Positions 26,771 to 48,645 of a stretch of DNA of 60,216 bases are shown here, piece after piece; the first letter of the stretch is position 1, and every line of letters begins with the position of its first letter. Where the stretch lies: NCBI GenBank assembly GCA_023259175.1, contig JAHFQV010000010.1, positions 1 to 60,216 on the forward strand, read 5' to 3'. A model generated the notes under the pieces. It saw nothing but the letters and a program-made list of their open reading frames with translations. It was not told where the DNA came from and did no database searches. This stretch comes from Oxalobacteraceae bacterium (GTDB taxonomy: Bacteria > Pseudomonadota > Gammaproteobacteria > Burkholderiales > Burkholderiaceae_D). Both the position numbers and the translations under genes were made by a program.

Positions 26771-27037
26771 ATGCATTCGGATTTTGCTCTGAATTTGATG
26801 TCCGATTTGTTTTGGACAGGGTTGTTGATTTGCCTACCCGTATTGGGTTTGACGATGTTGGTGGGCTTGATGATTAGCGTTTTTCAGGTGGTAACACAAA
26901 TTCAAGAGATGTCGCTTACATTCGTTCCAAAATTGATCACGGCAGCCATTACCTTGGTGGTCGCTGGGCCTTGGATGTTACGGAAGTTGACTCAGTTCAC
27001 GATTAAGTTGTGGGTCAATATTCCGGCGATGTTTTAG
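26771..27037 (+). CDS. fliQ: Flagellar export apparatus protein FliQ
   Basis: 88 residues from the ATG at 26771 (AGGTG 5 bases upstream; an in-frame TTG at 26750 is less likely). Two membrane helices, LICLPVLGLTMLVGLMISVFQ and LITAAITLVVAGPWMLRKL (each about 20 residues), flank the conserved QIQEMSLTFVPK loop. Part of the FliPQR gate of the type III export channel. First gene of the flagellar-like locus; 10 bp before fliR. Confidence 0.93.
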   Translation: MHSDFALNLMSDLFWTGLLICLPVLGLTMLVGLMISVFQVVTQIQEMSLTFVPKLITAAITLVVAGPWMLRKLTQFTIKLWVNIPAMF

Positions 27038-27047
27038 GAGGGCATGG

Positions 27048-27896
27048 GTGAATTACGGTTTGGCATTGATGCAATGGAGTGATAATGCTTGGGTGATGAG
27101 CGTGTATTTTTTGACGCTGCGCCTAGGAGCAATGCTGCTGCTGACACCGATTTTGTATGCCGGTAGCATGCCCGCGTCCGTGCGGACTTTTTTAATTTTG
27201 AGCTTATGTATTGCGATTTCTGCTGGGATTCTTCCATCGGATATCCCTGTGCTGGGTTTGGCACCGGGCGCGGGTGCCTTGATCGTGGCTAGTTTGCGGG
27301 AACTGATGCTGGGTGCCAGCTTTGCCTTGGGTATTTTGCTTGCTTTTGCAGCGATTTCGGTGGCGGGGCGGCTTTTGGATGTGCAGATTGGTTTTGGTAT
27401 GGCGCAGGTGTTTGACCCTTTGACACGCCGACAACTACCTTTGTTGACCTCGGCCTTTAATCAGTTGGGAATAATTTTATTTTTTCTTATTAACGCACAC
27501 CATACTTTGCTACGTGCTTTGGCTTTAAGTGTGGAAAAGTTCCCTTTGGGACGGGCGTGGGATATGGCTGATTTGGTGCTGCCAGTGGTGAGGCAAGTGG
27601 GCGGACTATTTAGCTTTGGCTTCGCATTGGCTTCGCCGGTAGTGTTTTGCGTGTTGTTGGTTGAGTTGGCCTTAGGCGTGGTATCACGAAATTTACCGCA
27701 GATGAATATGTTTGTAATGGGTGTTCCAGTGAAAATTGTCGTTGGCTTATTCGCCTTATCACTCTGGTTTTTGGCCGTGGGGGATGTCATGACGCGTATT
27801 CATGGCTCAATTTTCCAAACTTGGGATTGGATGTTGTCCGGCCCTGTCAATGCCACGCATACTAGCGTGAGCGCCGCAGGAGATGTGTATGTCTGA
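27048..27896 (+). CDS. fliR: Flagellar export apparatus protein FliR
   Basis: 282 residues from a GTG with AGGAGG directly upstream, at the fliQ stop. Several membrane helices; conserved FliR segments include PLTRRQLPLLTSAFNQLG-like and the LALGVVSRNLPQMNMF stretch. One copy joins FliP and FliQ in the export gate. Its 3' end overlaps flhB by 8 bases. Confidence 0.95.
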   Translation: MNYGLALMQWSDNAWVMSVYFLTLRLGAMLLLTPILYAGSMPASVRTFLILSLCIAISAGILPSDIPVLGLAPGAGALIVASLRELMLGASFALGILLAFAAISVAGRLLDVQIGFGMAQVFDPLTRRQLPLLTSAFNQLGIILFFLINAHHTLLRALALSVEKFPLGRAWDMADLVLPVVRQVGGLFSFGFALASPVVFCVLLVELALGVVSRNLPQMNMFVMGVPVKIVVGLFALSLWFLAVGDVMTRIHGSIFQTWDWMLSGPVNATHTSVSAAGDVYV

Positions 27897-28977
27897 ACAA
27901 GACCTCGATAGAAACGAAGAGGCGACGCCTTATAAATTGCAGAAGGCTAGAGAAAAAGGCCAAGTTGCTAAGAGCTCGGATGCTGTATCGGTGATTGTAT
28001 TCTTAGTTGCGCTGGTTTTCTTGTACTGGCGTGGCCTAGATGGTTTGCGGCATCTGTTTCAAGTCGATTTGGCCTTGATAGGACAACTCGGACGTTCCGA
28101 AATGGGGAGTGCCGGTTTGTGGTTTTTACTTCAGCAAATCGTGCAGGGTGGTGTGATGATGTTGCTGCCGTTTTTGTTGGCAATTATGCTGGCCGCGATC
28201 ATCGCAAACATGATGCAGACCGGGCCGATATTTTCGTTTGATCCAATATCGATGGACTTTACTCGGCTAAATCCGATGAATGGAATCAAAAAAGTTTTTT
28301 CTATGCGTAGCTTGTTTGATGCGGCAAGGATCTGTCTAAAGCTAGTTCTATTGACCCTGGTTACCTACCTTGCCTTGAAATCCTTGACCTCACAGTTTTT
28401 CAAGATTGCTGCTTTTTCGCCTTTGCAGGCGATGACGATGTTGGTCGATGATGTGGTTTCGATTGGTTTTAAAATGGCCTTGATGCTGATTATATTGGCG
28501 GCTGTCGATGTGATCTATACGCAGCGTGAATTCGCCAAGAAGATGCGCATGAGTAAGCGCGATGTTAAAGATGAGTCGAAAAATCGTGATGGTGACCCAC
28601 GCATACGTTCTCGTTTGCGCGAGTTGCGGCGCGAAATGTTAAAGCGAAGTTTAGCCGCTGCCAAGACTAAAGAAGCCGATGTGGTAATTACGAATCCTAC
28701 CCACATCGCTGTCGCTTTACGTTACGAACACGGGAAAATGGACTCGCCCTTGTTGTTGGCGAAAGGTGCTGGGTCTTTGGCGGCCGCGATGCGTAAGATA
28801 GCCGCGCGTCACGCAATACCTGTTGTCCAAAACCGTAGTTTGGCGCGGCGTATTTTTCATGATGTCGATTTCGACCAACATATTCCTACGCATCTTTTTG
28901 CAGATGTGGCTCGAATTATGATTTGGGTTTTGGCTATGCGTAAACAAAATCAGACAGCCTTGCGGACAGAAGTGTGA
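27889..28977 (+). CDS. flhB: Flagellar export switch protein FlhB
   Basis: 362 residues from the ATG at 27889 (AGGAG 6 bases before; an ATG at 27883 is weaker). N-terminal membrane domain of four helices, then the cytoplasmic domain with the autocleavage motif NPTH at 269-272, the same numbering as in enteric FlhB. Cleavage switches secretion from rod/hook to late substrates in flagella. Retention of NPTH suggests substrate switching still operates here. Confidence 0.97.
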   Translation: MSEQDLDRNEEATPYKLQKAREKGQVAKSSDAVSVIVFLVALVFLYWRGLDGLRHLFQVDLALIGQLGRSEMGSAGLWFLLQQIVQGGVMMLLPFLLAIMLAAIIANMMQTGPIFSFDPISMDFTRLNPMNGIKKVFSMRSLFDAARICLKLVLLTLVTYLALKSLTSQFFKIAAFSPLQAMTMLVDDVVSIGFKMALMLIILAAVDVIYTQREFAKKMRMSKRDVKDESKNRDGDPRIRSRLRELRREMLKRSLAAAKTKEADVVITNPTHIAVALRYEHGKMDSPLLLAKGAGSLAAAMRKIAARHAIPVVQNRSLARRIFHDVDFDQHIPTHLFADVARIMIWVLAMRKQNQTALRTEV

Positions 28978-28987
28978 AAGATGAAGA

Positions 28988-31069
28988 ATGAATAGCTTAA
29001 GCCGCATTATTTCAAAGAATAGCGACCTCGCCCTGGTCTTTTTCGTACTCTGTGTATTGGTGGTTTTGTTCGCGCCGATACCAAGTGGCGTGCTCGACTT
29101 TCTCATTTTGGCCAATTTTAGTTTCGCTTTCCTGCTCTTGCTTCTGACCTTTTATATGAAGCGTCCAGTGGAGTTCTCTACCTTCCCCTCTTTGCTATTG
29201 ATCGCAACTTTATTCCGATTATCGTTAAATGTGGCAGCAACGCGTTTGATTCTTTCGCACGGCGATGCGGGGCGGGTAATTGCCGCAATTGGTTCTTACG
29301 TGGTGGGCGGAAATTATGTCATAGGCTTGATCGTTTTTCTGATTTTGATTGTGGTGCAATATGTGGTGATTACCAGCGGCGCGCAGCGTGTTTCTGAGGT
29401 GGCTGCACGCTTCACTTTAGATAGTATGCCCGGTCAACAAATGAGCATTGATGCCGACCTGAATATGGGTTTTATTGATCAGGCCGAGGCTCAGTTACGT
29501 CGCAAGAATTTGGAAAAAGAAGCCGGATTTTATGGCGCAATGGACGGTGCAAGTAAGTTTGTGAAAGGCGATGCAATCGCCGGTATCATTATTTTGTTGA
29601 TCAATATTGTAGGCGGTCTGCTGATCGGTATTATGCAATTGGGAATACCTTGGGCGCAGGCCTTGCAGACCTATACTTTGTTGACGATAGGCGATGGTAT
29701 TGTGACTCAAGTTCCGGCATTAGTGATCGCTTTGGGAACGGGAATTATCGTGACGCGATCTGCGTCAGATGGGAATTTAAGTCAGGAAGTATTTTCCCAA
29801 ATTATGTCCTTCCCCAAAACTTTATTGTTGGTGGCGATGGCGCTATGCGGTCTGTTGATACTGCCCGGCATACCTGCATTGCCCACATTCGCATTATTGG
29901 TTTTTGCATTGGTGATTGCTTATGTATCTTATCGAAAAGCGCAATCGCCAAAGGAAACAGAGCTTGAACAATCGGGGGAGGACACACTCGCTAAACCGGA
30001 AGATAGTGAAAAAGATGATCCCTATGCGCTTTTGCCGGTAGAACCCATCGAGGTATTTATCGGTGCGAACTGGGTTCCATTAATTAAACAGACCGACAGT
30101 TTGTTCATGGAGCGTATAAGTGTTTTTCGAAAGCAGCACGCCTTGGATTTGGGCCTGGTGCTGCCACGCGTAAAGTTTAGAGACAGTCAAAAAATATCCG
30201 AGAACCGCTACGAAATATGTATTGATGGCGTAATTGTCGCCAAAGGTGAGGCGCGTTTGAAACAATTTTTGGCGATACACCCGACCGGTGACGTCAGTTC
30301 GATCAAAGGTGAGGTGACTAAGGATCCCACTTATGGTTTGCCGGCGATCTGGATCGACGACACGCAAAGAGATGCGGCGATCGCTGGAAAATTCACCCTC
30401 GTGGATGGAGCGACTGTGTTCATGACCCATCTTACCGAGATTTTACGACGCGAGTCCGCCACCCTACTGACACGGTCTGAAACTGATCGAATTTTGACTC
30501 GCGTTCGTGAGAATCAAGCGAGTTTGGTTGAAGAATTGATCCCCACGGTATTGTCAGTGAGCGACGTACAGCGCGTGTTGCAAAGTCTGCTGCGTGAAAA
30601 GGTATCGATCCGGAATATCGATGCTATTTTGGAGACGCTGGCCGATGCAGGACGTGCGACGAAAGACGTTGGACATTTGACCGAAATGGTGCGGCAACGG
30701 CTGGGTAATGCCATCTGCCAAGGATTGTTGGGTGAGTCTAATTCGCTGCATGTCATCACACTTGACCCGACAATTGAGAGTCAATTTATGCAGAGTGTGC
30801 AAGTTATGCGTCAAGAAAGTATGCAAACACAGTCAGCGCGTCCGTTTGTACTGGACCCAAAACTCGCAGAGCAATTTATTAGCCGGTTGGTGCAGCAGTC
30901 AGAGCGCATGATGAAAAATAATATGTTGCCCGTCTTGTTGTGTTCCCCTGATTTGCGTCGTCATATTCGTGCTCTGAGCGAGCGTGTGGTGCCGCATTTG
31001 CGGGTGTTATCGATGTCTGAAATTCCGCAAACAATAGAGCTTAAGTCGTTTGGAATGGTCAGCGTTTAA
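28988..31069 (+). CDS. flhA: Flagellar export platform protein FlhA
   Basis: 693 residues, full length. N-terminal membrane domain with eight helices and the FHIPEP-type segment (FYGAMDGASKFVKGDAIAG), then a linker rich in Asp/Glu (about 325-345) and the cytoplasmic nonameric-ring domain (DPTYGLPAIWID, HLTEILRRESATLL, SIRNIDAILETLADAG). Overall it is closer to flagellar FlhA than to injectisome SctV by these motifs. Energises export with the proton gradient. Follows flhB by 10 bp. Confidence 0.97.
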   Translation: MNSLSRIISKNSDLALVFFVLCVLVVLFAPIPSGVLDFLILANFSFAFLLLLLTFYMKRPVEFSTFPSLLLIATLFRLSLNVAATRLILSHGDAGRVIAAIGSYVVGGNYVIGLIVFLILIVVQYVVITSGAQRVSEVAARFTLDSMPGQQMSIDADLNMGFIDQAEAQLRRKNLEKEAGFYGAMDGASKFVKGDAIAGIIILLINIVGGLLIGIMQLGIPWAQALQTYTLLTIGDGIVTQVPALVIALGTGIIVTRSASDGNLSQEVFSQIMSFPKTLLLVAMALCGLLILPGIPALPTFALLVFALVIAYVSYRKAQSPKETELEQSGEDTLAKPEDSEKDDPYALLPVEPIEVFIGANWVPLIKQTDSLFMERISVFRKQHALDLGLVLPRVKFRDSQKISENRYEICIDGVIVAKGEARLKQFLAIHPTGDVSSIKGEVTKDPTYGLPAIWIDDTQRDAAIAGKFTLVDGATVFMTHLTEILRRESATLLTRSETDRILTRVRENQASLVEELIPTVLSVSDVQRVLQSLLREKVSIRNIDAILETLADAGRATKDVGHLTEMVRQRLGNAICQGLLGESNSLHVITLDPTIESQFMQSVQVMRQESMQTQSARPFVLDPKLAEQFISRLVQQSERMMKNNMLPVLLCSPDLRRHIRALSERVVPHLRVLSMSEIPQTIELKSFGMVSV

Positions 31070-31089
31070 ATCAATTTGGAGTGGTTGAA

Positions 31090-31884
31090 ATGAATGGTGT
31101 TTTGGGTGTAGCGCTGCAAAGTATGCAGCATGATATGAAACGGGTTGAGCGTGTTGGCGTCAATATGGCCAATTCACTGACACCCGGCTATAAGCGCGAG
31201 ATCGTGGTGGAGCATCCCTTTTCAAATATGGTGGCTGACGCATTGCAAACCCCAAACGCTTCGGATGCAAAATTTTTTCAGACAGCCAGCTTGAGTGATC
31301 CCGGTGCGGTTGGACTTGATTTTGTAACGGATCGTCAGGTAGGTACTTTAAAACCTACAGGTGAAAAGTTAGATTTGGCCTTGGCCAGCGAAGCGTATTT
31401 TCAGGTCTCGACTGCGCATGGTTTGGCCTACACACGGCAGGGCGCGTTTCGGATGGATGCGCGTGGTCGTTTGGTGACAGCGCAGGGTGATCCAGTGATG
31501 GGTAAGAGCGGGGAAATTCGCTTGAATTCGAATGTACCTAGCATTGATGCGAACGGCAATGTTTATGATACGGCACAGGTGAATCAACAAACAGGATTAC
31601 CCGAAGCGGCCATTGCGCAATTAAATATTGTTCAATTTGAACAGCCCGGATTTTTACAGAAAAATGTCGACGGCTTATGGGTAGCTGCGGAAGAGGCGGG
31701 AATGAGTGAGGCAAAAAATCCGCAGGTGATGCAAGCACATTTGGAAAACTCAAACGTTAGTTCTATGCAGGAAATGGTCACCTTAATGCAAGCAATGCGA
31801 CACTTGGAGTCGATGCAAAAAGTGGCTCAAGGCTATGATGAAATGTTGGGGACGGCGATTCGTAAATTAGGGGAAGTTTCTTAA
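31090..31884 (+). CDS. flgF: Flagellar proximal rod protein FlgF
   Basis: 264 residues from the ATG at 31090, with GGAG about 8 bases upstream. N-terminal rod/hook motif NMANSLTPGYKRE, central region, and C-terminal DUF1078 helix (NSNVSSMQEMVTLMQAMRHLESMQKV). Family members share these ends with FlgG and FlgE; order before flgG supports FlgF. Exported through the FlhA/FlhB gate to build the proximal rod. Confidence 0.88.
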   Translation: MNGVLGVALQSMQHDMKRVERVGVNMANSLTPGYKREIVVEHPFSNMVADALQTPNASDAKFFQTASLSDPGAVGLDFVTDRQVGTLKPTGEKLDLALASEAYFQVSTAHGLAYTRQGAFRMDARGRLVTAQGDPVMGKSGEIRLNSNVPSIDANGNVYDTAQVNQQTGLPEAAIAQLNIVQFEQPGFLQKNVDGLWVAAEEAGMSEAKNPQVMQAHLENSNVSSMQEMVTLMQAMRHLESMQKVAQGYDEMLGTAIRKLGEVS

Positions 31885-31929: not shown

Positions 31930-32724
31930 ATGTTTAATGGATTGTTTATTGGTGCAGCAGGAATGCGCGCACAACAAATGAATGTCGATACGATTGCTAA
32001 TAATTTGGCGAATGCGAACACTACAGGATTTAAAAAAGGACGCGTCAGTTTTACTGAAATGATGGTGCAAGATAGTAACCGCACGCAAACATCAAATGCT
32101 GATTTGGATACCGTGGCCATGAATAGCTTGCGTCATGCCGGCGTGGGTGTGGCTGTTGCGAGTGCTGGAAAAATATTTGAGGCCGGAGAGCTGCGGAAAA
32201 CTGAATCAGCGATGGATGTGGCGATCGCGGGAGATGGTTTTTTTGAATTGGCGATGTCTGATGGTAGTACTGCCTACAGTCGTGGCGGTAGCTTGAAAAT
32301 TAATCGCGACGGGCAACTTGCCTTGAGTACTGGACAGGCCCTAAAACCAGGAATAAACGTGCCTGACAACGTACAAGCAGTCAGTATCGCCCGTGATGGA
32401 CGTGTTAGTTTTTCGGTGGCAGGTCAAAGCGCCCCTGTCGATGGAGGCCAGTTGGAGCTGGTGCGTTTCACTAATCCCAATGGACTCTCATCGCAAGGCG
32501 AGGGTGTCTATTTGGCGAATGAAAATTCCGGCATGGCGATGACTTCTCTACCGGGTGAAAATGGTGTGGGTACCGTGTCTCAAGGTTTTCTGGAAGCATC
32601 AAACGTCAAGATGATAGATGAAATGATTAACTTGATGGTGGCGCAACGTGCCTATGAAGCAAACGTGAAAATCGTTCAAGCTTCCGATGAGATGTTGGGC
32701 ATGATTAATAATTTGCGTAAGTAG
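31930..32724 (+). CDS. flgG: Flagellar distal rod protein FlgG
   Basis: 264 residues, normal length. Starts with the conserved segment around QQMNVDTIANNLANANTTGFKK and ends with LEASNVKMIDEMINLMVAQRAYEANVKIVQ (two halves of the canonical tail). Forms the distal rod inside the P and L rings. AAGGAA precedes the ATG. Confidence 0.95.
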   Translation: MFNGLFIGAAGMRAQQMNVDTIANNLANANTTGFKKGRVSFTEMMVQDSNRTQTSNADLDTVAMNSLRHAGVGVAVASAGKIFEAGELRKTESAMDVAIAGDGFFELAMSDGSTAYSRGGSLKINRDGQLALSTGQALKPGINVPDNVQAVSIARDGRVSFSVAGQSAPVDGGQLELVRFTNPNGLSSQGEGVYLANENSGMAMTSLPGENGVGTVSQGFLEASNVKMIDEMINLMVAQRAYEANVKIVQASDEMLGMINNLRK

Positions 32725-32749
32725 AATTTGGATTGATTAGATTGTGTTG

Positions 32750-33727
32750 ATGCGCTTTGCCTTACTCCTACTTTTAGCGTTCACAATGGTGAATGTCGGC
32801 GCACGTGCGTCGTCCTCGGCCGCTGCGATCAAGATTGATTTGCGAAGCGAAGTTAAGCTTACGTCAGCGCAGGTGCATTTGTCCGATTTGGCAGAGATCA
32901 CGACCCCAGATTTGCAGAGTATGCAGAAGCTGATGACGCTTAATTTGGGTCAAGCGCCGCAGTTAGGGCAAAGTAAGCGTTTGGAGCGAGACGTGTTAGT
33001 CACTTGGGTGCGTCGAGTGTTGGGGTCGAGGGCAGCACAAATTCAATGGGGTGGTGCGAATCTGGTGTCGATTGCTTCACTTGGGCAGGAACTCAAAGCC
33101 AAAGCAATTATGCAGGTGGCGCAGGATGAGCTCATGACCTGGTTGGCAGCACGAAGCGATAGTGCGAAGGTAGTGGTGAACTATCTGCCACACGATCTTT
33201 TGCTGCCTTCGGGCGAGATCGAATTAACAGTACGCCCTTTGCGCGAACATGAGTCCGTGCAATCAAGGATAGCGATGTTGGTGGATGTGTGGGTCGGTAA
33301 GCGTTTTGTGCGTTCCGTATCCGTCACTTTTGAGGTGAGCGCATTTCGTAAAGCTTGGATTGCGAAGCAAGAAATCGCCGCAGGGCAAATACTTCAAAGC
33401 GCGATGTTTGAACCGCGACAAGTGGATATCGCTAAGTTGCATGAAGTTGTATTGGATCAGGATGTTGAATCGATTAAGCGTCGTGCTCGTACTCGTATTG
33501 TGACCGGTCAGCTGCTGAGCGTGCAGCGCGTCGAAGCTTTTCCTCTGGCGACCAAAGGCGAGTTGGCCCGCCTCGTTATGCGCGCTGGTGATTTTGAAGT
33601 TGAGAGTCAAGTTGAAGTGCTGAAGGAAGGTTATTTGGGGCAAGTGATACCGGTGAAGGGGAAAAATTCGAATGGACTCGTCATGGCAAAAGTAGTGGGA
33701 GAAGGTTTGTTGGAGATGAAATTATGA
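32750..33727 (+). CDS. flgA: P-ring assembly chaperone FlgA
   Basis: About 325 residues from the ATG at 32750 (GTG at 32744 is possible). Signal peptide about 1-22. The C-terminal SAF/ChapFlgA domain is clear: KQEIAAGQILQSAMFEPRQVD, then LSVQRVEAFPLATKGELARLVMRAG and a final GQVIPVKGKNSNGLVMAKV. Longer than enteric FlgA (about 220), with an extra N-terminal domain as in many beta- and alphaproteobacteria. Works in the periplasm for FlgI. The stop overlaps the flgH ATG (ATGA). Confidence 0.85.
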   Translation: MRFALLLLLAFTMVNVGARASSSAAAIKIDLRSEVKLTSAQVHLSDLAEITTPDLQSMQKLMTLNLGQAPQLGQSKRLERDVLVTWVRRVLGSRAAQIQWGGANLVSIASLGQELKAKAIMQVAQDELMTWLAARSDSAKVVVNYLPHDLLLPSGEIELTVRPLREHESVQSRIAMLVDVWVGKRFVRSVSVTFEVSAFRKAWIAKQEIAAGQILQSAMFEPRQVDIAKLHEVVLDQDVESIKRRARTRIVTGQLLSVQRVEAFPLATKGELARLVMRAGDFEVESQVEVLKEGYLGQVIPVKGKNSNGLVMAKVVGEGLLEMKL

Positions 33728-35585: not shown

Positions 35586-35969
35586 ATGATTTATAAAACT
35601 GAGAACTTAACGACAGCAAGTATCGGCTATGCTTTAGATGCGGCTAATTTGCGGCATCAGGCGATTGCCTCCAATATCGCCAATGTTAACACTGTCGGGT
35701 ATGTGCCGCAGCAAGTGAGTTTTGCTCGTCAAATGGAGCAAATGCAAACCATGTTTGAGCAAAGTGCATCGTCCGATACGGTCGATTTTTCACATATGAA
35801 ATTGCAGCTAGAACCCATGCTTAATGCTCAGGGTGCGCCAGCCAAAGTTGAGTTAGATGCCGAGGTCGCGGCAATGGCGCAGAACGCGGTGCATTATCAG
35901 GCACTCGTGAAGGGTTTGAGTCGTCACTACGCGATTTTGGCGAGTGCGATGACGGATGGCAAAAAATAA
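35586..35969 (+). CDS. flgB: Flagellar proximal rod protein FlgB
   Basis: 127 residues, typical. Conserved NLRHQAIASNIANVNTVGY and a C-terminal NAVHYQALVKGLSRHYAILASA helix. Begins the block (flgB to fliP) that is collinear with the Bacillus fla/che operon. 54 bp after flgI. Confidence 0.95.
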   Translation: MIYKTENLTTASIGYALDAANLRHQAIASNIANVNTVGYVPQQVSFARQMEQMQTMFEQSASSDTVDFSHMKLQLEPMLNAQGAPAKVELDAEVAAMAQNAVHYQALVKGLSRHYAILASAMTDGKK

Positions 35970-40316: not shown

Positions 40317-41693
40317 TTGGTAACGCAATTGACTACACCGACATTTTCCATCGCATCTTACCTCGCTGCCGTCGAGCAGCAGGATTTGACGCGTCGAATT
40401 GGACGCGTGAGCCAGTTGAGCGGACTCTCAATTGAGGTTTCTGGTTTGAACGCATCGGTCGGTGAATTGTGTTCTATCTATCCGAAGCAATCCGGCAAAC
40501 GTAATGAACCCGCTGCAGATCGTATTTTGGCGGAAGTGGTCGGTATAGGCGCGGGGTTTTTGACCCTGATGCCTTATGGATCAGTTCAAGGATTGGCTGC
40601 CGGTTGCGAAGTGGAGGCTGAGAATAGTTTTTCTGAGATCGGTGTTGGATATGAATTATTAGGGCGAGTCATCGATGGATTTGGGCGACCACTTGATCAA
40701 CTTCCACAAGCAAAGACGACACAACAACGCAATTTGAGGGCGACCCCGATCAATCCCCTGCATCGTCCACGCATTGAAGAAGTGTTGGAAACCGGCGTCC
40801 GTAGTATTGATGCATTGTTGACTTTGGGAAAAGGACAGCGGGTCGGTATTTTTTCAGGTAGTGGTGTCGGCAAAAGTACTTTACTCGGTATGATCGCTCG
40901 CCATGTCAAAGCCGATGTGAATGTGATCGCACTAATCGGTGAGCGTGGTCGCGAGGTACGTGAATTTATCGATAAACAGTTGGGTGTAGAGGGCTTAAAG
41001 CGTTCTGTTTTGATCGTTGCGACTTCGGATCAGCCCGCGCTGGCCCGTATGCGTGCCGCCTATGCGGCGTTGGCAATAGCGGAATTTTTTAGAGACGAAG
41101 GTAAGCAAGTTTTATTGACGATGGATTCGATTACGCGCTTTGCGATGGCACGCCGTGAGGTCGGTTTGTCGGCTGGCGAACCACCTACCGCGCGAGGATA
41201 TACGCCCTCGGTGTTTGCCGAATTGCCTGAATTGTGTGAGCGCTGCGGCACCTCGGATTCTGGCGGAACAATTTCAGCATTGATGACAGTTTTGGTTGAG
41301 GGCGATGATTTGAATGAGCCAGTTTCCGATAGCCTACGTTCAATTCTTGATGGGCATATCGTTTTAACGCGGCAACTTGCGCATAAAGGCCAATATCCAG
41401 CGATTGACGTGCTCAAGAGCGTGAGTCGGGTGATGTCCGATATTGTCACGCGTGAAGATCGTGATTTGGCGATAGAACTGGTCAAGCAGTTGGCGATTTT
41501 GGAACGTAACCGGCAAATGGTGGATATCGGTGCTTATGAGCATGGCAGTAACCCCATCCTGGATCAAGCCCTATTGGTCGATAGTGAACTACAAAATTGG
41601 CTACGTCAAAGTGACGGTGGTGTCGCGCGTCAACAGGCGATTGCCGCGTTAAGATCGATTTTGCAAGCGCAGGAAGTAGGTGCGAAAAAATGA
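40317..41693 (+). CDS. fliI: Flagellar export ATPase FliI
   Basis: 458 residues from a TTG start with GGAG 6 bases upstream. F1-beta-like ATPase: Walker A GSGVGKST (181-188), catalytic GERGREVREF, Walker B LLTMDSITRFA, and the GEPPTARGYTPSVFAELP segment. The hexamer unloads chaperones and assists export. ATGA overlap with fliJ. Confidence 0.97.
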   Translation: MVTQLTTPTFSIASYLAAVEQQDLTRRIGRVSQLSGLSIEVSGLNASVGELCSIYPKQSGKRNEPAADRILAEVVGIGAGFLTLMPYGSVQGLAAGCEVEAENSFSEIGVGYELLGRVIDGFGRPLDQLPQAKTTQQRNLRATPINPLHRPRIEEVLETGVRSIDALLTLGKGQRVGIFSGSGVGKSTLLGMIARHVKADVNVIALIGERGREVREFIDKQLGVEGLKRSVLIVATSDQPALARMRAAYAALAIAEFFRDEGKQVLLTMDSITRFAMARREVGLSAGEPPTARGYTPSVFAELPELCERCGTSDSGGTISALMTVLVEGDDLNEPVSDSLRSILDGHIVLTRQLAHKGQYPAIDVLKSVSRVMSDIVTREDRDLAIELVKQLAILERNRQMVDIGAYEHGSNPILDQALLVDSELQNWLRQSDGGVARQQAIAALRSILQAQEVGAKK

Positions 41694-42181
41694 GTAGTTT
41701 AGTAGATTTACGCGGCTTTAAATATGCGCTAGAACCGTTGGCGCAACAGGCGCAATGGAAGCTCGATGCACTGCAGTTGGTGCTCGCACGTGCGCAACAG
41801 CAATTGAGCGAATGCAAAATTATCTTGAATCAATTGCATACGCAAAAAGAGGCAGTTCTCGTGGCCGTTAAAGAGTTGTGGAAGAGTCGACTAGATTTGA
41901 CGACTTATACCCATGCACTCGATTTTATACAAAGCCTGCAAAAGAAAATTGAAACGCAACAGCTAGAAGTGGATGAAAAACGTAAGCAGCTCGACGAGGC
42001 CATGAACGCTTGCACAGTGCAACAGCAAAAATTGGAATTGCTGGCAACGCACCGTCAAGAAAACCTTGAAGAATTTAGCTTGGAGCAGGGGAATATTTTA
42101 AGTGCCGAGGCAGATCGTGATTGGAATGCGCGCCGATTTTTGCGCCAACAACAAGAGAAAAATAAGGAGCTCAAGCGATGA
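41690..42181 (+). CDS. fliJ: Flagellar export ATPase stalk protein FliJ
   Basis: 163 residues, almost entirely coiled coil (heptads from about 15 to 155). Length and position after fliI identify it as FliJ; primary sequence conservation in this family is low. In known systems it inserts in the FliI hexamer and contacts FlhA. ATGA overlaps at both ends. Confidence 0.82.
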   Translation: MSSLVDLRGFKYALEPLAQQAQWKLDALQLVLARAQQQLSECKIILNQLHTQKEAVLVAVKELWKSRLDLTTYTHALDFIQSLQKKIETQQLEVDEKRKQLDEAMNACTVQQQKLELLATHRQENLEEFSLEQGNILSAEADRDWNARRFLRQQQEKNKELKR

Positions 42182-43404
42182 GAACGGCCTTATTTGACTA
42201 TGCCCAATTTCCTAAACCGCAGCGAGAGCAATCAGGAACGCGTGTGAACGAGGACGCGATCTCAAAAGAGGCTCGTCGAGACGCATGGTCGCGTGCGATG
42301 GAACAGCAACAAATGGGGGCTTGGTTACAGCACGGGTTACTTAAACGTGACGTGCTCAATGCATCGCACTTCTCTAGCACAAATTATTCGACTTCATCAC
42401 ATGAGTTGCCGACTCACGCAATCACGATGACCCAAGCACGGCCAGTAGCGCAGGCTGTTCAGCAAACGCTGAATGGAAACGTCCGAATTTCGACAATGGG
42501 GGCGCAACAAATTTTTCAAGCTGCGCCACACGAAAAATTAGCATGGACAAATGCGCACTTGGCATTTTCATTGCAGACGCCCACCCAATTTGTACCGCCC
42601 CAATTATTGCAATCACAAAGTAATGAAGGAACAGCCGCGCCGTTTACATCAGCAATAACCGAGGCGTTAAATCCAATATTGCAAGCACCGAACAAACAGC
42701 TTGAGCTGACAGACTCGGAGACGCACTTGACTTTAAACCACGATGCGGACGAGAAAGGAAAAAAAAATGAGCTGAGCGCTTCAGATAGTTCCACACAAAA
42801 GATATTTTTTGAATCTGTTGGCGTGTTAGATGAGGCATTTGGTTTTCATTTGGGGCAGGCCTTGGAAAGGTTCTTGAATCCCAATTTTAACGAGGCAAGT
42901 AGCGTCGGTCGTACCGTAGCTTCTAGTGGCGGAACAAGTCAATGGATCCATGATCGTACTTTGATGGCGGCGCCGAAAGCGCAGCACGTTGCGGGCGATG
43001 AAATTTTGGTCAAGGATAGCGATCAATCGAGCAACTCGAACCCTACACCGCTTCAACAAAAACCACTGCGTTTTCATGCAGAGATGTCGGAAATGGGGGT
43101 ACGTATTTGGCTAGGATTTGATCAATCCGAGCTCGCGAATATTCCAGCGCTGGTTTCGCATTTGACGCAATGGTTAGCATTGCAAAACTTGCCCTTGGCG
43201 GCCTTGGTTTGTAATGGGAAAGAGCTTCATGCGAGAGCACAAGCGATCACAAATAACAGCTTCAATAACGAAGCTTTTGCCGAGGAAGTCGGGGCAGAGG
43301 CAGCCACGATGCAAACGGGGACTGCGAAGCCGTCCCTAGATTCATCAGTCAATTTAATTCACACCAGCTTTAATTCTTTCGTTAGGAATCACTATGGCGA
43401 TTAA
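42178..43404 (+). CDS. fliK: Putative hook-length control protein FliK
   Basis: 408 residues. The first about 280 are low in structure, Gln/Asn/Ser/Thr-rich, as in FliK rulers. Residues about 295-355 (LRFHAEMSEMGVRIWLGFDQ and LAALVCNGKEL) are in the place of the Flg_hook domain, but the canonical LxPxxLGxVxVxL pattern is not clear. The call rests on position between fliJ and flgD, size and composition. Overlaps flgD by 11 bases. Confidence 0.65.
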   Translation: MRTALFDYAQFPKPQREQSGTRVNEDAISKEARRDAWSRAMEQQQMGAWLQHGLLKRDVLNASHFSSTNYSTSSHELPTHAITMTQARPVAQAVQQTLNGNVRISTMGAQQIFQAAPHEKLAWTNAHLAFSLQTPTQFVPPQLLQSQSNEGTAAPFTSAITEALNPILQAPNKQLELTDSETHLTLNHDADEKGKKNELSASDSSTQKIFFESVGVLDEAFGFHLGQALERFLNPNFNEASSVGRTVASSGGTSQWIHDRTLMAAPKAQHVAGDEILVKDSDQSSNSNPTPLQQKPLRFHAEMSEMGVRIWLGFDQSELANIPALVSHLTQWLALQNLPLAALVCNGKELHARAQAITNNSFNNEAFAEEVGAEAATMQTGTAKPSLDSSVNLIHTSFNSFVRNHYGD

Positions 43405-43798
43405 CGCAGTCAGCAGTACCGCAGCAAATGTCAACTTGCAAAGCAATAATATGGGAGTGCAAGATTTTCTGAAAATTTTGCTGACACAGTTGAATTATCA
43501 AGACCCGATGAAGCCTATGGATAATCAACAATTCATGGCGCAAATGGCGCAGTTCACGACACTGCAACAAACGCAGCAGTTAAACGCCAACATCGAAAAA
43601 CTGATTACTAATCAAGCGTCATTGCAATCAGTCGGATTGATCGGGCGCACTGTCAATATCTCGTCGAACGGAGCAACTTTAACTGGACAAGTCGTTTCAT
43701 TGTCCTTAAGCGGCGATGCACCCCTGTTGACGATTACAACTTCGGGTGGTGCAACGATACAAAATGTGGGCTTAAATCAAGTAATCTCAGTTCGTTAA
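43394..43798 (+). CDS. flgD: Hook cap/scaffold protein FlgD, short form
   Basis: 134 residues; enteric FlgD has about 230. The conserved N-terminus is complete: GVQDFLKILLTQLNYQDPMK, then MDNQQFMAQMAQFTTLQQ. A short beta-rich tail follows (IGRTVNISSNGATLTGQVV) that fits the start of the central domain, and the rest is missing. Short FlgD forms are known in Firmicutes and alphaproteobacteria, so this may still work as a cap. Confidence 0.92.
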   Translation: MAINAVSSTAANVNLQSNNMGVQDFLKILLTQLNYQDPMKPMDNQQFMAQMAQFTTLQQTQQLNANIEKLITNQASLQSVGLIGRTVNISSNGATLTGQVVSLSLSGDAPLLTITTSGGATIQNVGLNQVISVR

Positions 43799-43840: not shown

Positions 43841-45028
43841 ATGTTAGATTCAATTTATATCGGTATGAGTGGCCTGCAAGGATATTCTCGCGGTTTAAAA
43901 GTCATCGCTAATAACACAGCAAATATTAATACACCGGGCTATAAAGGTTCGAGTTTGCAGTTCGCGGATATGTTCTATTCTAATAGTGGTACAGGGGGTA
44001 ATTCTTCCGGTACCTTTGGACAAGTGGGCCATGGATTGTTGACGAATGGAACGACGCTTAACTTTAAACAGGGCGAGTTGCGTCAAACCGGCAATTCCTT
44101 AGATTTGGCGGTCGATGGTGAGGGCATGTTTACGCTTAAGGATGCTGATGGTCAATTGCGCTATACCCGCGCCGGACAGTTTGAATTTAATTCAGACGGC
44201 GCGCTCGTTAATCGTAATGATGGCAGCAAGGTGATGGCCTTGGATTCCAGTGGAAACATGGTCGAAATTAGCGCCAATGGTAGTCGCGCAAATAATGCAA
44301 AAGCGACGACGACTATTAAATTTAGTGGCAATGTGCCAGCGGGTGGTACGACACAGACGATTAATTCAGTCAAAGTGATCGACAGTAATGGTGCCGAACA
44401 TATTTTGACGGTGACCTTGACTAATACCAATGCGACGACCCCTGGTAGTTGGCGTGTTGATGTGCTCGATGGTACGACCAATGTCGGTACCAGCCAAATT
44501 ATTTTTGATACGGGCAAACCAACTACGGCAACTTCGAAACTCAACATTAACTACACTCCGGCGGGCCTCACTGCAATGCCATTGCAGCTCGATTTCAGTA
44601 CCGACGTTACTTCGGTCGCCCCGGGTACCTTGCAAGCAATAGGCTACGTATCGAATGATGGCTTTACTTCTGGAGCGCTTTCTGGCGTGAGCTTTGATGC
44701 GGCTGGTGTCATGATACTGACCTATACCAATGGTCAAACGGTGAAGGGAAATAAACTCGCCTTGGCGCGTTTTGATTCGACCGACGATGTCGCTTCGGTG
44801 GGCAGTAATCAGTTTAAAGCACTTAATCTAAATTCTTGGCATCGTGGTACTGCGAATGGCAATGGATTTGGTTCGATTAAATCCGGACAAGTTGAGATTT
44901 CGAATGTGGATTTGTCGCAAGAGTTTAGTGATCTCGTGATTATGCAGCGCGGCTATCAAGCCTCATCGCAAATTGTGACGACTGCAAATGAAATGTTGCA
45001 AGAGCTGTTTTCGATGAAAGGTAAGTAA
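43841..45028 (+). CDS. flgE: Flagellar hook protein FlgE
   Basis: 395 residues. N-terminus MLDSIYIGMSGLQGYSRG with NTANINTPGYKG, a variable middle rich in Thr/Ser/Asn with internal beta repeats, and a C-terminal VEISNVDLSQEFSDLVIMQR-GYQASSQ tail. GAGGAG lies before the ATG. Its presence means the locus builds a hook, which injectisomes lack. Confidence 0.95.
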   Translation: MLDSIYIGMSGLQGYSRGLKVIANNTANINTPGYKGSSLQFADMFYSNSGTGGNSSGTFGQVGHGLLTNGTTLNFKQGELRQTGNSLDLAVDGEGMFTLKDADGQLRYTRAGQFEFNSDGALVNRNDGSKVMALDSSGNMVEISANGSRANNAKATTTIKFSGNVPAGGTTQTINSVKVIDSNGAEHILTVTLTNTNATTPGSWRVDVLDGTTNVGTSQIIFDTGKPTTATSKLNINYTPAGLTAMPLQLDFSTDVTSVAPGTLQAIGYVSNDGFTSGALSGVSFDAAGVMILTYTNGQTVKGNKLALARFDSTDDVASVGSNQFKALNLNSWHRGTANGNGFGSIKSGQVEISNVDLSQEFSDLVIMQRGYQASSQIVTTANEMLQELFSMKGK

Positions 45029-45030
45029 GC

Positions 45031-45882
45031 GTGATGAAGCAAACTGTGCGTTCTGAGCCGCGCTTGGGTGAACCCCAGGCTTTGGCCTGGGTACCTGACC
45101 GTGAACTGATACAACTGGCGCAGCGTTTAAACCAGTTGTTGGATACTTGGTTCGAAGAGTGGCGTTCTGAGTCTATAGATGCAGTCAAAGTGAGCTGCTA
45201 CGCTGCTGGTCAATGCTCGGTAGATCTGTCGCGGGTTCACACGTGGACGCAAATGGGTGTCGGTGCAGATGAAGGGCTTTGGGTCGGTTTGACCGCCACT
45301 AAGCAAAACATTTTTGCTGAGACTTTGTTTGGAAATCCTGCGCAAAAGTCCCAAGAAACCGCGCAGTCGAGTCTGGCTAATCGCTTGATTTCTCAAGCAT
45401 GGACGGATTTTCTGGTACACCTGTCGTCGGGTCTGGGACTTGCGAACGCACCCATTTCATCTACAGCACCTGAAGGCCGATTATTCGAACAATGGTCAGG
45501 CGCTGCGATTGTGAAATTGCAGTTGGATACTCAGTGTATTTTCTTCGTATTGAGCGCGTCCTTGATGCAAACTTTGCGAAGCTTGCAGACTTTGGGCGCA
45601 GGGGGAACTCCGAATTTACCGGCACTGCCAAAATTGCTAAGGCCGATCGCACGGTTGGAACAAACGCTCGCGAAGCAAATAATTCAATTGCGTGTGAGCC
45701 TAAACGGATGTGAATTGGATCTAGGCTCTCTTGAACACTTACAGTTAGGTGATGTGGTTCGTTTAGAACACAAACTTGATCAAGCACTGTTACTCAAGAC
45801 AGGGCAGGGCGAGCTGGTCTGCCATGCCTATCTTGGACGAAATAAAAATAAAAAGGCGATTGAACTCGCTAGTGCGAACTAA
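45031..45882 (+). CDS. FliM-like switch protein lacking the CheY-binding N-terminus
   Basis: 283 residues from the GTG at 45031 (ATG at 45034 possible); normal FliM is about 330. The C-terminal SpoA (FliN-like) domain is recognisable at about 215-280 (LRVSLNGCELDLGSLEHLQL, GDVVRLEHKLDQ). The middle could be a degenerate CheC-like FliM fold. The conserved N-terminal LSQxEIDALL peptide, which binds phosphorylated CheY, is absent; the chain starts directly with an unrelated stretch. It sits before fliN, the usual fliM slot. It may form a ring that is insensitive to chemotaxis signals. Confidence 0.65.
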   Translation: MMKQTVRSEPRLGEPQALAWVPDRELIQLAQRLNQLLDTWFEEWRSESIDAVKVSCYAAGQCSVDLSRVHTWTQMGVGADEGLWVGLTATKQNIFAETLFGNPAQKSQETAQSSLANRLISQAWTDFLVHLSSGLGLANAPISSTAPEGRLFEQWSGAAIVKLQLDTQCIFFVLSASLMQTLRSLQTLGAGGTPNLPALPKLLRPIARLEQTLAKQIIQLRVSLNGCELDLGSLEHLQLGDVVRLEHKLDQALLLKTGQGELVCHAYLGRNKNKKAIELASAN

Positions 45883-45890: not shown

Positions 45891-46310
45891 ATGTCTATAA
45901 GGCCTAAACATAACTTTTTGAATGCTCTTAGTATGAAATCGATTTTAGAAAACGGTGCAAATGCACAAAACGAAACGCCCCTCGTTCAGATGATAGACCT
46001 CGCTGAAATGAATGAGAATGAAGTGAAAAATGAGACTGACGCTGCCAACGGCGGGGCATCAGTGATGAAAAATATTAATCCCTTGCACTCAATTAAAACT
46101 CGCTTGCAAGTATTTGTGGGCGAGCTCGAAATAAGCGTGGGTGAATTACTCGCAGCGAAAGAGCACCAAGTGCTGACTTTAAACAGTGACTTTAATGATC
46201 CCGTTGATTTGGTTTTGGAAGGACATGTCGTCGCACGGGGAAAGTTAGTTGCGGTTGATGGCCATTTCGCGATCAAAATTACAGAGTTACCTATCGCTCT
46301 AAAGCCCTAA
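45891..46310 (+). CDS. fliN: Switch protein FliN
   Basis: 139 residues. The C-terminal SpoA domain (about 68-137) is good: KTRLQVFVGELEISVGELLA, NDPVDLVLEGHVVARGKLVA, HFAIKITEL. The N-terminal 65 residues are acidic and disordered. Forms the base of the C ring and docks FliH in known systems. No strong ribosome site is visible 8 bp after the previous stop. Confidence 0.88.
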   Translation: MSIRPKHNFLNALSMKSILENGANAQNETPLVQMIDLAEMNENEVKNETDAANGGASVMKNINPLHSIKTRLQVFVGELEISVGELLAAKEHQVLTLNSDFNDPVDLVLEGHVVARGKLVAVDGHFAIKITELPIALKP

Positions 46311-46326: not shown

Positions 46327-46914
46327 ATGTTGCGATTATCTCGGCTTACCGCATTCTTATGCTACCGACAGGCGCGAGTTTTATTCGCCTTATTGCCTTT
46401 GTTTTTCACAATGACTGTGATGACTGGGGATGTCTGGGCAGATTCGGTCAGCCCGGCGCAAATAGTCGCGAACGGGACTGCTTCTGCGTCCGCTGTCGTT
46501 ACTTCTCTCTCGAGTAATCTGCCTTTGCGTCGAGAGAATGCGGAATCGTTTGGGATTCAAGCGGGAAAGATTTTCGTATTGTTGGTGATTTTTGCGGCAG
46601 TCACGCTCTTGTGCGTCGTTTATTTAAAACGGCGTATACAGGGCTCAACTAGTCGTACATGGATGAAATTTGTTTTGGAATCTAAAAGTGACCCTGAAAT
46701 TGAAACGCTGAAGTTGAAGAAGCGTTTGCAGCTTACGGCCAAAAATAGTCTACAGGTGGTGCAATGGGGCGATCAAGAATTCTTACTTGCATGCGCTGAG
46801 CAAACCATCACGGTACTCGGCACTAAGTCGATAGAAAAAGCGACCATGAAAGATACAATGAATAAAACCGATTCAGCCGCGATTCAAGTAACGCAAGACG
46901 GAGCGAGTACATAA
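46327..46914 (+). CDS. fliO: Flagellar export assembly protein FliO
   Basis: 195 residues. Signal-like N-terminal hydrophobic segment (about 17-38), a second membrane helix (about 78-100), then the FliO cytoplasmic domain (KRLQLTAKNSLQVVQWGDQE, FLLACAEQTITVLG). Chaperone for FliP oligomerisation. Its stop overlaps the fliP ATG (TAATG). Confidence 0.82.
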   Translation: MLRLSRLTAFLCYRQARVLFALLPLFFTMTVMTGDVWADSVSPAQIVANGTASASAVVTSLSSNLPLRRENAESFGIQAGKIFVLLVIFAAVTLLCVVYLKRRIQGSTSRTWMKFVLESKSDPEIETLKLKKRLQLTAKNSLQVVQWGDQEFLLACAEQTITVLGTKSIEKATMKDTMNKTDSAAIQVTQDGAST

Positions 46915-47855
46915 TGCGTCGTTTAAGTTTAGCGTTAATGATGTTCGCCTTGAGTTTCGCCGCATTGTCGTATTCGCCCAATGGGCTTGCGCAAGGTTCG
47001 GATGAAGACTCCGGCCTAAAACTCTCAAACTCTTTGAGCATTGCACCTCAATCAGATGTGAATTCGAAGAAGGAGGGGTCGGGTAATGGCTTCGAGGAAG
47101 ATGCACGTAAAGAGTCTGTTCCAAGTAGCGTAGCCGCAAGTAAATCCTCCCCGCCGTCCACGCAAGTCGACAAACGTGCAAGCGCGTCCGTGGCAGACGA
47201 AAAAACGGGCGTGAAGATCAATCCCAACGAAACCAGTCAAGCATTGCGGGTGATTTTAGGTTTAACGGTGCTCGCGATTTTGCCGGCATTATTGGTTTCG
47301 ATTACCGCATTTTTGAGAATTATTATTGTACTTTCGATGCTGCGTCATGCTATTGGTATGCCTGAAACACCGCCCAATTCGGCCTTGATTGGACTGGCGC
47401 TATTTCTAACGGTTTTTACGATGTCGCCTACTTTGCAAAAGGTGAATCAAGATGCATTCGAACCGTTTATGGCGGGTCGCATGAACGCCGAAGCGGCCTA
47501 TGAGAAGGCAAGCTTACCTATCCGTGATTTCTTGGTGCGACAAACCCGTGAGCAGGATTTAGCCTTGATGGTCGAACTCTCAAAAGCAAAACCACCTGAA
47601 AGCATGGCGGACATTAGTAACGTGCAGTTGGTTCCGGCATTTATGCTTTCGGAATTACGTGCAGCATTTCAGATCGGGTTTGTGATTTTTCTTCCTTTCC
47701 TTCTCATCGATTTAATTGTATCTAGTATTTTAATGGCGCTTGGCATGATGATGATGCCGCCGACATCCATCGCCTTGCCACTAAAAATACTGATGTTTGT
47801 TTTGGTTGACGGTTGGAGCCTCGTCTTGAAGGCCTTGATTGGTTCATTCCATTAG
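46914..47855 (+). CDS. fliP: Flagellar export gate protein FliP with a long N-terminal linker
   Basis: 313 residues against about 245 in enterics. Signal peptide about 1-24, then about 75 residues of polar Ser/Lys/Glu-rich linker before the conserved domain. FliP motifs are intact: SITAFLRIIIVLSMLRHAIG, TPPNSALIGLALFLTVFTMS, FLVRQTREQDLALM, LSELRAAFQIGFVIFLPFLL, and GMMMMPPTSIALPLKILMF. The linker would lie on the periplasmic side of the export gate. Confidence 0.95.
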   Translation: MRRLSLALMMFALSFAALSYSPNGLAQGSDEDSGLKLSNSLSIAPQSDVNSKKEGSGNGFEEDARKESVPSSVAASKSSPPSTQVDKRASASVADEKTGVKINPNETSQALRVILGLTVLAILPALLVSITAFLRIIIVLSMLRHAIGMPETPPNSALIGLALFLTVFTMSPTLQKVNQDAFEPFMAGRMNAEAAYEKASLPIRDFLVRQTREQDLALMVELSKAKPPESMADISNVQLVPAFMLSELRAAFQIGFVIFLPFLLIDLIVSSILMALGMMMMPPTSIALPLKILMFVLVDGWSLVLKALIGSFH

Positions 47856-47865
47856 CGTGCCAACG

Positions 47866-48645
47866 ATGCCCAGCTACGATTTAATTCAATCAAAAATATC
47901 ACGGTATTTTGAAGAGGAATTGGCTTTGTGGCGGCATTTTTGTTTATATCGCGATCAATTGAGTCGCGAAGCGCTGATTAAAATTCATTTGCCGTTTGCG
48001 CGTATGATGGCCGCTAAAATTTTCGCTAAACGTATGGATGAAGACATCGCGTTTGATGATTATCATCAATTTGCGCGAGTGGGACTACTTGAGTCGATTG
48101 AGCAATTCGATCCCGACTTTGGTGTGAAGTTCGAAAGCTTTGCGGAACATAGAATTCGTGGCGCGATACTTAGTGCGCTCGAATATCAAACGGAAAAGCA
48201 ACAGCAGATTTCCTTGTCTAAACGTGTTCGATTAAAACAAGAAGATAAATCGACCCGAGAGCTAAGCCAATTTGCCGCATCATTGAAAGATGAACGGGCT
48301 GCGATATTTGAAACGCTCACTCAAGAAAGCTTGGGGCACGCGATTGCCTGGATATTGGAAAATACGGGATGTGTCGTACACCACGAACAAGAACAGCATG
48401 ACTTTCCCTATTATCGTAATGTCGAACTTAAGCAACTACGTTCGCGCATGCAAACTTGCATAGAACAGTTAACGGCGAACGAGCAAAAAGTGATTCGCTA
48501 CTATTTCTTTCAAGAGGTGCCTCTCGCCGAAATCGCGGAGCTATCCTCGCTCAGCAAGGGCCGAATATCCCAAATAAAATGCAATGCGCTGAACAAACTT
48601 CGAAGAATTCTTAAAAGCACGTCTTTGGAAGACTTCATTTGTTGA
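47866..48645 (+). CDS. FliA-like flagellar sigma factor (sigma-28 family)
   Basis: About 259 residues from the ATG at 47866; TTG 47839 and GTG 47857 are alternatives, none with a clear ribosome site. Region 2 (about 40-110: HLPFARMMAAKIF, FDDYHQFARVGLLESIEQFD, FESFAEHRIRGAIL) and region 4 (about 205-250: LTANEQKVIRYYFFQEVPLA, SLSKGRISQIK) are present; region 3 is weaker. In flagellar systems it directs late genes. Located at the end of the locus as sigD is in Bacillus. No FlgM-like anti-sigma is recognised in the window. Confidence 0.82.
   Translation: MPSYDLIQSKISRYFEEELALWRHFCLYRDQLSREALIKIHLPFARMMAAKIFAKRMDEDIAFDDYHQFARVGLLESIEQFDPDFGVKFESFAEHRIRGAILSALEYQTEKQQQISLSKRVRLKQEDKSTRELSQFAASLKDERAAIFETLTQESLGHAIAWILENTGCVVHHEQEQHDFPYYRNVELKQLRSRMQTCIEQLTANEQKVIRYYFFQEVPLAEIAELSSLSKGRISQIKCNALNKLRRILKSTSLEDFIC

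Follow-up and report, generated by a model that had tools for sequence, protein, structure and literature searches.

In this study we analyzed a 60,216-nucleotide stretch of DNA from an Oxalobacteraceae bacterium (assembly GCA_023259175.1, contig JAHFQV010000010.1; hereafter the window), which carries a run of 25 collinear genes on its + strand at 26750-48645. The export gate, the rod, the P and L rings and the hook of a flagellar apparatus are all encoded in this one run, and many of the genes overlap their neighbour, just as a first-pass annotation of the same DNA had described. We consider it likely that this locus specifies a flagellum-derived, hook-bearing type III device that is dedicated to giant polymorphic YD-repeat toxins, for which it would serve as the exporter. 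Because it combines a hook without motor or filament with giant, toxin-like partner genes that are nearly constant, the locus probably represents a secretion machine of its own kind, as opposed to an organelle for swimming. The device is homologous to flagella and would be expected to act by type III secretion.

A hook-bearing locus without recognized filament and motor genes

Genes of the window were named by hidden Markov model (HMM) scans. Of the features that characterize a motile flagellum, the export gate, rod, rings and hook were present at the locus, and the filament protein, the cap and the torque domain of FliG were not. In these scans none of the 25 genes was recognized as flagellin, FliD, FlgK/L, FlgJ, FliS, FlgM, FliL, a stator or FliG_C, which, from flagellin to the stators, bears out the absences listed in the first-pass annotation. 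The slot of fliG is taken by a protein, here called X, that resembles the N and M domains of FliG only, the torque domain apparently being gone. A profile of X matched a profile of 16 FliG proteins with E 6.7e-5 and a probability of 63.6 over FliG residues 2-178 of 331, and nine unrelated families that were used as a control all gave E values of 0.075 or more. Among 15 relatives of X there were weak matches to FliG_M (2), FliG_N (2) and MgtE_N (4). As judged from this gene content, the locus does not appear to be built for rotation.

The genome to which the window belongs (4.03 Mb in 233 contigs, 95.8% complete) also contains the genes of an ordinary flagellum, which are located on C112 and C156. 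BLAST with the window proteins identified FlhB, FlhA, rod, hook and ring proteins in this set, a FliG_C match was present at C156, and chemotaxis, stator, FliD and FliS-like open reading frames (ORFs) were assigned on the two contigs by reading the sequences. There were two Flagellin_N matches in the genome, the weaker of which, on C112, is probably FlgL. With this ordinary set in the genome, the possibility that the locus is the sole, rearranged flagellum of the organism is ruled out. The first-pass annotation had set that possibility against its own proposal of a second flagellar system or a secretion device lacking filament and motor. The proposal is supported by the other flagellum in the genome, by the FlhA of the locus (41% identical to that of the primary flagellum, and in a clade of its own), by plasmid copies and by hosts free of flagellin and FliG_C (see below), and it is supported best in its secretion-device form.

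Recurrence and phylogeny of the locus

FlhA proteins of the same clade were found in 15 of 399 genomes of the order (hereafter the order sample), and copies of the locus lie on plasmids of Variovorax PDNC026 (FlhA identity 74%), Undibacterium YM2 (61%) and Burkholderia ubonensis MSMB2035 (53%). A sixteenth genome over the threshold (G095, 684 bits) had ordinary flagellar neighbours and was removed. We compared 18 loci, namely the window, the three plasmids and 14 genomes of the sample, using local HMMs to detect the families. Twenty of the 25 families were present in at least 17 of the 18 loci, mostly in the same order, and those less well kept were flgH, X and the sigma factor (16 of 18 each), Y (12 of 18) and Z (4 of 18). 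Some absences coincide with the ends of contigs or stretches (G379, G337); others are either real or reflect too great a divergence for detection, e.g. those of flgA, flgB, X and the sigma factor in G177. Deviations in order consisted of a permuted block in G056 and a displaced fliH in Undibacterium. The gene order, whose occurrence elsewhere the first-pass annotation had raised as a question, recurs for the most part among the 18 loci, more than chance would explain.

For a wider search, a degenerate DNA pattern for an FlhA motif that is invariant in the aligned members was run over a species-genome collection. This selected 108 stretches, in every one of which the FlhA match was located beside flhB or flgF. 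The corresponding loci were named Massilia, Duganella, Variovorax, Ramlibacter, Ralstonia, Pandoraea, Chromobacterium, Collimonas and Methylophilaceae, among others. Outside the Betaproteobacteria there were Povalibacter (Steroidobacteraceae) and single metagenome-assembled genomes (MAGs) with the unconfirmed labels Sphingomonas and Bacteroidota. This is a recurrent, partly plasmid-borne system found nearly exclusively in Betaproteobacteria. FlhA had no inner stops in any of the 15 clade genomes of the order sample. As side observations, flgI is split into two ORFs in the Undibacterium YM2 plasmid copy (L005 25273-26438), FlhA is broken in two in L124 and L133, and in L104 and L136 (Ramlibacter) an FlhA piece adjoins the sigma gene, as though the central part of the locus were gone.

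In a free tree with 37 rows, twenty locus FlhAs formed one clade (support 100/100, stem 0.76) on the flagellar side and outside the SctV clade, and three ordinary betaproteobacterial flagella formed a separate one (100/100). When sister positions of the locus FlhA were constrained, the p values of the approximately unbiased test (p-AU) were 0.039 for the betaproteobacterial flagella, 0.258 for Firmicutes, 0.248 for SctV and 0.513 for alphaproteobacteria. A position with the ordinary betaproteobacterial flagella is thus weakly rejected, the other three positions are not rejected, and the FlhA tree that had been proposed in the first-pass annotation sets the locus apart from them. Since the tree leaves the sister group undecided, a Firmicutes origin was dropped as a finding; the description of the locus as Firmicutes-like in the first-pass annotation stands for its gene order only.

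A FliG_C domain was found in 51 of 58 locus-bearing genomes, and in the 14 genomes of the order sample that have it, it was always located on a different contig or at a great distance from the locus. The seven genomes in which it was missing are G389 (a MAG, 89% complete), Variovorax 770b2, Caenimonas koreensis, Ramlibacter WS9, R. pallidus, R. ginsenosidimutans and R. terrae. Flagellin was found in none of these seven, and a full-length locus FlhA was kept in five. The locus FlhA of R. ginsenosidimutans is a piece of 203 residues only, and in the complete genome of R. terrae (G809 C1, ~4890916-4892940, L147) it is spread over several frames, which may be due to decay or to sequencing error. 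Variovorax 770b2 and Caenimonas have additional FlhA homologues, which the tree places on the side of SctV. Separately, two FliG_C matches were seen in 17 of the 58 genomes (G056, G764, G777, G779, G781, G785 and others), and in 16 of these the second one scored 70-103 bits, which suggests one more flagellar gene set there.

Giant YD-repeat proteins accompany the locus

Giant genes were present close to the locus in Undibacterium (12,948 codons), Burkholderia (4,897) and Variovorax (~6,180). The giants have an N-terminal domain in common (MVAIVxGNGLGL...), which is followed by YD/RHS repeats; in the B. ubonensis giant, the one that was scanned whole, PF05593 was matched in 19 stretches, and YD-like repeats were counted in 16 giant frames. 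Two giants were also present in the window's genome, outside the contig of the locus: one on C193 (at least 7,945 codons) and one on C83 (at least 1,743 codons), both of which are cut by contig ends. Complete giant frames that were read had 4,314 to 12,948 codons, in addition to frames of 1,222 (G249) and 1,701 codons (G077, which includes a masked stretch), and the longest open giant frame listed has 15,898 codons (Solimicrobium silvestre, G808 C5:162263). Inspection by eye revealed no evident signal peptide at the giant starts. These proteins were outside the view of the first-pass annotation, which had offered alternatives for function, and it is they that suggest one.

The N-terminal domain was detected in 14 of the 399 genomes of the order, 12 of which are among the 15 with the locus. 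In other words, the domain was present in 12 of the 15 locus-bearing genomes versus 2 of the 384 others (counts 12, 3, 2 and 382; Fisher p 1.4e-18, kinship not corrected). Of the 158 genera, 14 have the locus and 11 have giants, and each of these 11 is also one of the 14. Three congeners in the order sample (G209, G239, G327) had neither the locus nor a giant at the thresholds used. A phylum-wide draw of 398 genomes contained the domain in three (G000, G056, G255), all of them locus genomes. In a second set it was present in 49 of 50 locus-bearing genomes. These 50 had been picked by hand from the 80 that were listed for the 108 loci, the giant search leaving out 30 listed ones (21 MAGs and 9 others) and 28 unlisted ones. 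Five of the 50 were also part of the first sample (Andreprevotia IGB-42, Chitiniphilus, Parachitinimonas and Chitinimonas BJB300, each with a giant, and Methylobacillus arboreus, without a match), so that 45 of 45 new genomes had a giant. Chance association of locus and giants is ruled out by the order-sample and second-set counts. The M. arboreus genome (G025) has a 627-codon frame at the contig start, 3.3 kb before fliQ (at 5226), that by eye resembles C-terminal parts of the giants.

The coupling extends to gene positions. In 19 of 32 second-set draft genomes a giant that had been fetched for the promoter test (see below) was on a contig equal in size to the locus contig, within ~55 kb of the FlhA piece. 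In Povalibacter, the genes from fliQ to fliP, the giant (a 4,227-codon open frame), TPR2 and TPR1 form one run, with the giant directly after fliP.

A sigma28-like promoter motif upstream of many giants

Upstream of the giants we noticed the pattern CTAAAC-N15-(C/T)GGAT, first by eye and in 14 upstream regions; it resembles the consensus of sigma28 promoters. A matrix was built on 9 of the 14, and since this matrix is circular for its own nine giants, further giants were fetched for the test (40 from 32 genomes, 39 of them long enough). With the matrix fixed, 20 of the 39 new giants were over the 1% background level (~0.4 expected) and 8 were over the 0.1% level. A looser pattern, CTAAAC-N15-NNGA, which was chosen after the matrix result, preceded 29 of the 39 giants versus 16 of 5000 random windows. 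In the window's genome exact matches are located 77 and 498 bases before the start codons of the two giants; the pattern is not enriched in this genome (6 matches versus 5 for a reversed-pattern control), and only its placement before giants counts.

The motif was no more frequent than chance at the export genes, a giant-type promoter was present before TPR2 in 2 of 13 cases, and the 40 kb of Povalibacter that were read had neither the motif nor a sigma gene. Among genomes without FliG_C and flagellin, motif scores were 13.6 and 15.9 in Variovorax 770b2, 11.1 in Ramlibacter WS9 and 11.2 in R. pallidus, with the 1% level at 12.0. From the promoter matches before giants we infer that the sigma factor of the locus would drive the giant genes. 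In Ralstonia sp. A12 (L270, L278) a strong promoter match is located on the strand opposite to the giant, with no known system gene directly behind it.

Composition and C-terminal ends of the giants

Cysteine is rare in the giants, with 31 of 74,405 residues in 16 frames (0.04%) versus 0.53% and 0.72% in two comparison sets, and the rod and hook proteins contain none. Both the YD/RHS repeats and the conserved core with exchangeable ends that are features of Rhs toxins were present. Two neighbouring giants in G056 are 66% identical over ~2,900 columns and 52% across an additional part, and their final 300-400 residues do not match each other. At the end of one there is an N-acetylmuramidase (PF11860 6.8e-63), and at the end of the other nothing was matched by Pfam. 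In G255 the end of the giant is a Scabin-like ADP-ribosyltransferase (ART; 3.3e-22), with weaker matches to related ART families. In total, five of the seven ends examined were unrecognized by Pfam. An ORF of more than 60 codons started within 20 bases of the stop in 8 of 9 giants examined, a count that has no chance control, and one of the eight (G077) is probably more of the giant itself. These small ORFs seem to be placed as immunity genes are.

Genes of the locus in the window

The run begins with the export gate and its switch. FliQ (26750..27037; PF01313 6.1e-26) may start at TTG 26750 or at ATG 26771, the start given in the first-pass annotation. It is followed by fliR (27048..27896; TIGR01400 1.9e-44), flhB, the export switch (27883..28977; TIGR00328 9.1e-102), and flhA, the gate protein with its own clade in the tree (28988..31069; TIGR01398 5.2e-233, above the curated cut-off). 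Next are the rod genes flgF (31081..31884; TIGR02490 1.9e-41) and flgG (31930..32724; TIGR02488 7.9e-82), flgA for the P-ring chaperone (32744..33727; TIGR03170 1.7e-20), flgH for the L ring (33724..34341; NF001301 8.1e-45), flgI for the P ring (34326..35531; NF003676 1.8e-115), the rod genes flgB (35586..35969; TIGR01396 3.3e-17) and flgC (35994..36437; TIGR01395 2.2e-32), fliE (36437..36742; PF02049 4.5e-24) and fliF for the MS ring (36833..38335; PF01514 1.8e-57, PF08345 4e-15). X, which on profile comparison would be a FliG N+M-like adaptor without torque domain (38332..39012), precedes fliH (39170..40315; PF02108 2.1e-10) and the ATPase gene fliI (40317..41693; PF00006 6.7e-88, PF18269 6.6e-12).

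Y (41690..42181) is FliJ-like, with a match to TIGR02473 (1.1e-5) below the model cut-off, and Z (42178..43404) is assigned to the FliK position by its position only; at E 0.001 none of X, Y and Z had a Pfam match. The remaining genes are flgD, with an N-terminal hook-cap domain (43394..43798; 134 aa, PF03963 6.8e-20), flgE for the hook (43841..45028; PF06429, PF22692, PF00460, PF07559), a FliM-like C-ring protein of which only FliMN_C was recognized (45031..45882; PF01052 1.1e-5), fliN (45891..46310; PF01052 1.7e-16), fliO (46327..46914; PF04347 4.1e-6), the gate gene fliP (46914..47855; PF00813 1.6e-73) and a sigma-70 family factor (47839..48645; PF04545 1.7e-13, PF04542 1.9e-7).

Three genes on the - strand (23946-26279), divergent from fliQ and each kept in 12 of the 18 loci, are part of the unit. 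TPR1 (25089..26279) is a TPR protein of the system with TPR Pfam matches. TPR2 (24366..25061) is a candidate secretion chaperone, the profile of which matched SycD/LcrH weakly (3.7e-6) and PilW better (1.3e-7), both below cut-off. The third gene encodes a small accessory protein of 131 aa (23946..24341), the relatives of which were aligned and which had no Pfam or NCBIfam match.

Discussion

In the mechanism that we propose, the MS ring, the FliPQR-FlhBA gate, the ATPase, the rod, the P and L rings and the hook would be the parts of the device, and rod, rings and hook would assemble as they do in a flagellum. The sigma factor would switch on the giant. The N-terminal domain of the giant could act as an export signal and TPR1 and TPR2 as its chaperones, together bringing the giant to the FlhA/FlhB gate, after which it would pass the hook unfolded and its C-terminal end would harm a neighbouring cell, most likely a bacterium. 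The muramidase end points to a bacterial target, and we would put the chances that the giants are antibacterial at about even.

A number of observations weigh against this interpretation. Export of the giants, assembly of the device and killing of neighbours are all steps predicted from the genes, and we know of no precedent for such cargo passing through a hook. In addition to M. arboreus, two genomes with the locus had no match to the giant domain, G337 (87% complete, 7% contaminated) and G074, the latter of which has a 3,273-codon YD-repeat frame that fills a 9.8-kb contig. At the thresholds used, the single contig of G249 (L072-L073, L074) had two giants with the promoter motif and no locus FlhA, which may be orphan cargo or may reflect a lost device, and G298 had a 401-codon giant piece without the locus being found. 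Plasmid giants with the same N-terminal domain in Undibacterium KW1 and Eleftheria terrae (NZ_AP018440.1 58823-59206; NZ_CP106952.1 544335-544703; NZ_CP106953.1 397279-397647) are unpaired with a locus, the chromosomes not having been searched. In addition, the N-terminal matches include short frames of 57-401 codons that are cut or broken and were left unsorted. With respect to the promoter, the opposite strand was also over the 1% level in 8 of the 39 upstream regions, the sole such site explained being that of Variovorax ginsengisoli, where the divergent gene is TPR2, and the pattern was missing before 10 of the 39 giants, including giants in the sigma-bearing genomes G801 and G813. Finally, Rhs proteins elsewhere leave by the type VI secretion system (T6SS) or carry signal peptides, according to PMC10433427.

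Several other explanations could account for part of the data. The giants could be surface fibres or adhesins that replace the filament and, once exported by the device, stay attached to the tip of the hook, where they would mediate contact or biofilm formation without toxin delivery. Their coupling to the locus would fit equally, the Undibacterium giant is annotated as a tandem-95 repeat protein and some relatives as LysM, and five of seven ends have no Pfam match; we nevertheless regard this as unlikely in view of the muramidase and ADP-ribosyltransferase ends, the conserved core with its unlike ends and the small ORFs within 20 bases of the stop in 8 of 9 giants, albeit with no chance control for the latter. 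It is less probable still that giants and device are merely inherited and regulated together while the giants exit otherwise, by Sec and the outer membrane, by a type I secretion system or by T6SS. Such routes are known for large Rhs proteins elsewhere (signal peptides or T6SS; PMC10433427), passage through the hook is itself a prediction and other exporters were not searched for, but the giant starts had no evident signal peptide by eye and the Povalibacter giant sits inside the device gene run.

A second motile flagellum would depend on the primary one for its flagellin, its hook-associated proteins, its FliG and its stators. Even with FliG_C available in 51 of 58 host genomes and with a complete rod, rings and hook, we hold this to be very improbable, as the locus has no torque domain, as five of the seven genomes without FliG_C keep a full-length locus FlhA while none of the seven has flagellin, and as the coupling to giants would be left unexplained. 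That the locus is the basal-body relic of a decaying flagellum is hardly credible: near-complete, ordered gene sets are present in 18 loci of many families and none of the 15 order-sample clade genomes has an inner stop in its FlhA match, which outweighs the damaged FlhA of R. terrae, R. ginsenosidimutans, L124, L133, L104 and L136. Altogether, we favour a secretion device dedicated to the giants.

We see roughly equal grounds for and against going further and regarding the system as a third flagellum-related export lineage besides motile flagella and injectisomes, i.e. one that is motorless, hook-bearing, betaproteobacterial and partly moved by plasmids, that has its own sigma factor and chaperones, and that threads giants through its hook into or onto competing bacteria. 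If true, this would be an independent conversion of a flagellum to a secretion machine in which hook and outer rings were kept and torque was lost, so that one could test in which sequence such losses occur. In addition, giant Rhs-type proteins of this class would have an exit route, and a flagellar-type exporter would be linked to bacterial conflict. Because automatic annotation labels the genes of the locus as flagellar, genomes without a flagellum appear flagellated.

Relation to known systems

The gate, the ATPase, the rod, the P/L rings and the hook of the locus are homologous to those of the bacterial flagellum. In addition, the locus FlhA scores over the curated cut-off for flagellar FlhA and is on the flagellar side of the free tree. 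The locus differs from the flagellum in having no recognized filament, cap, stator or FliG_C genes and in its coupling to giant YD proteins. Additional flagellar sets, some of them transferable, are also known as Flag-2, lateral and Fla2 flagella; these are known to have flagellin and stators, whereas neither was recognized at the locus. With injectisomes (non-flagellar type III secretion systems, NF-T3SS) the locus has in common a flagellum-related export gate and the lack of a motor. Injectisomes, however, have a secretin and a needle, while the locus has flgH, flgI, rod and hook genes, and no secretin is present among its 25 genes. Its FlhA is outside the SctV clade in the free tree, where a position as sister to SctV is nevertheless not rejected (p-AU 0.248).

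A literature search by title and abstract found no description of such a system. PMC3482391 names type III secretion systems among the export routes of polymorphic toxins, and no hook-type device is described in the passages of PMC3482391 and PMC10433427 that were consulted. The giants resemble Rhs/YD-repeat toxins in their YD repeats, conserved core, exchangeable ends and small genes past the stop (PMC3482391, PMC10433427), and the Rhs4 and Rhs5 proteins of M. xanthus have ~4,000 aa (PMC10433427 / PMC3482391). Compared with these known Rhs toxins, the giants have an N-terminal domain peculiar to them, with no signal peptide evident, their own promoter and an accompanying flagellar-type device. 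The nearest functional parallel is the T3SS* of Myxococcus, which acts in contact-dependent killing of bacteria, has LcrH homologues and is said to have no outer-membrane part (PMC3459982, PMC10433427); the locus described here differs from it by its P and L rings and its hook.

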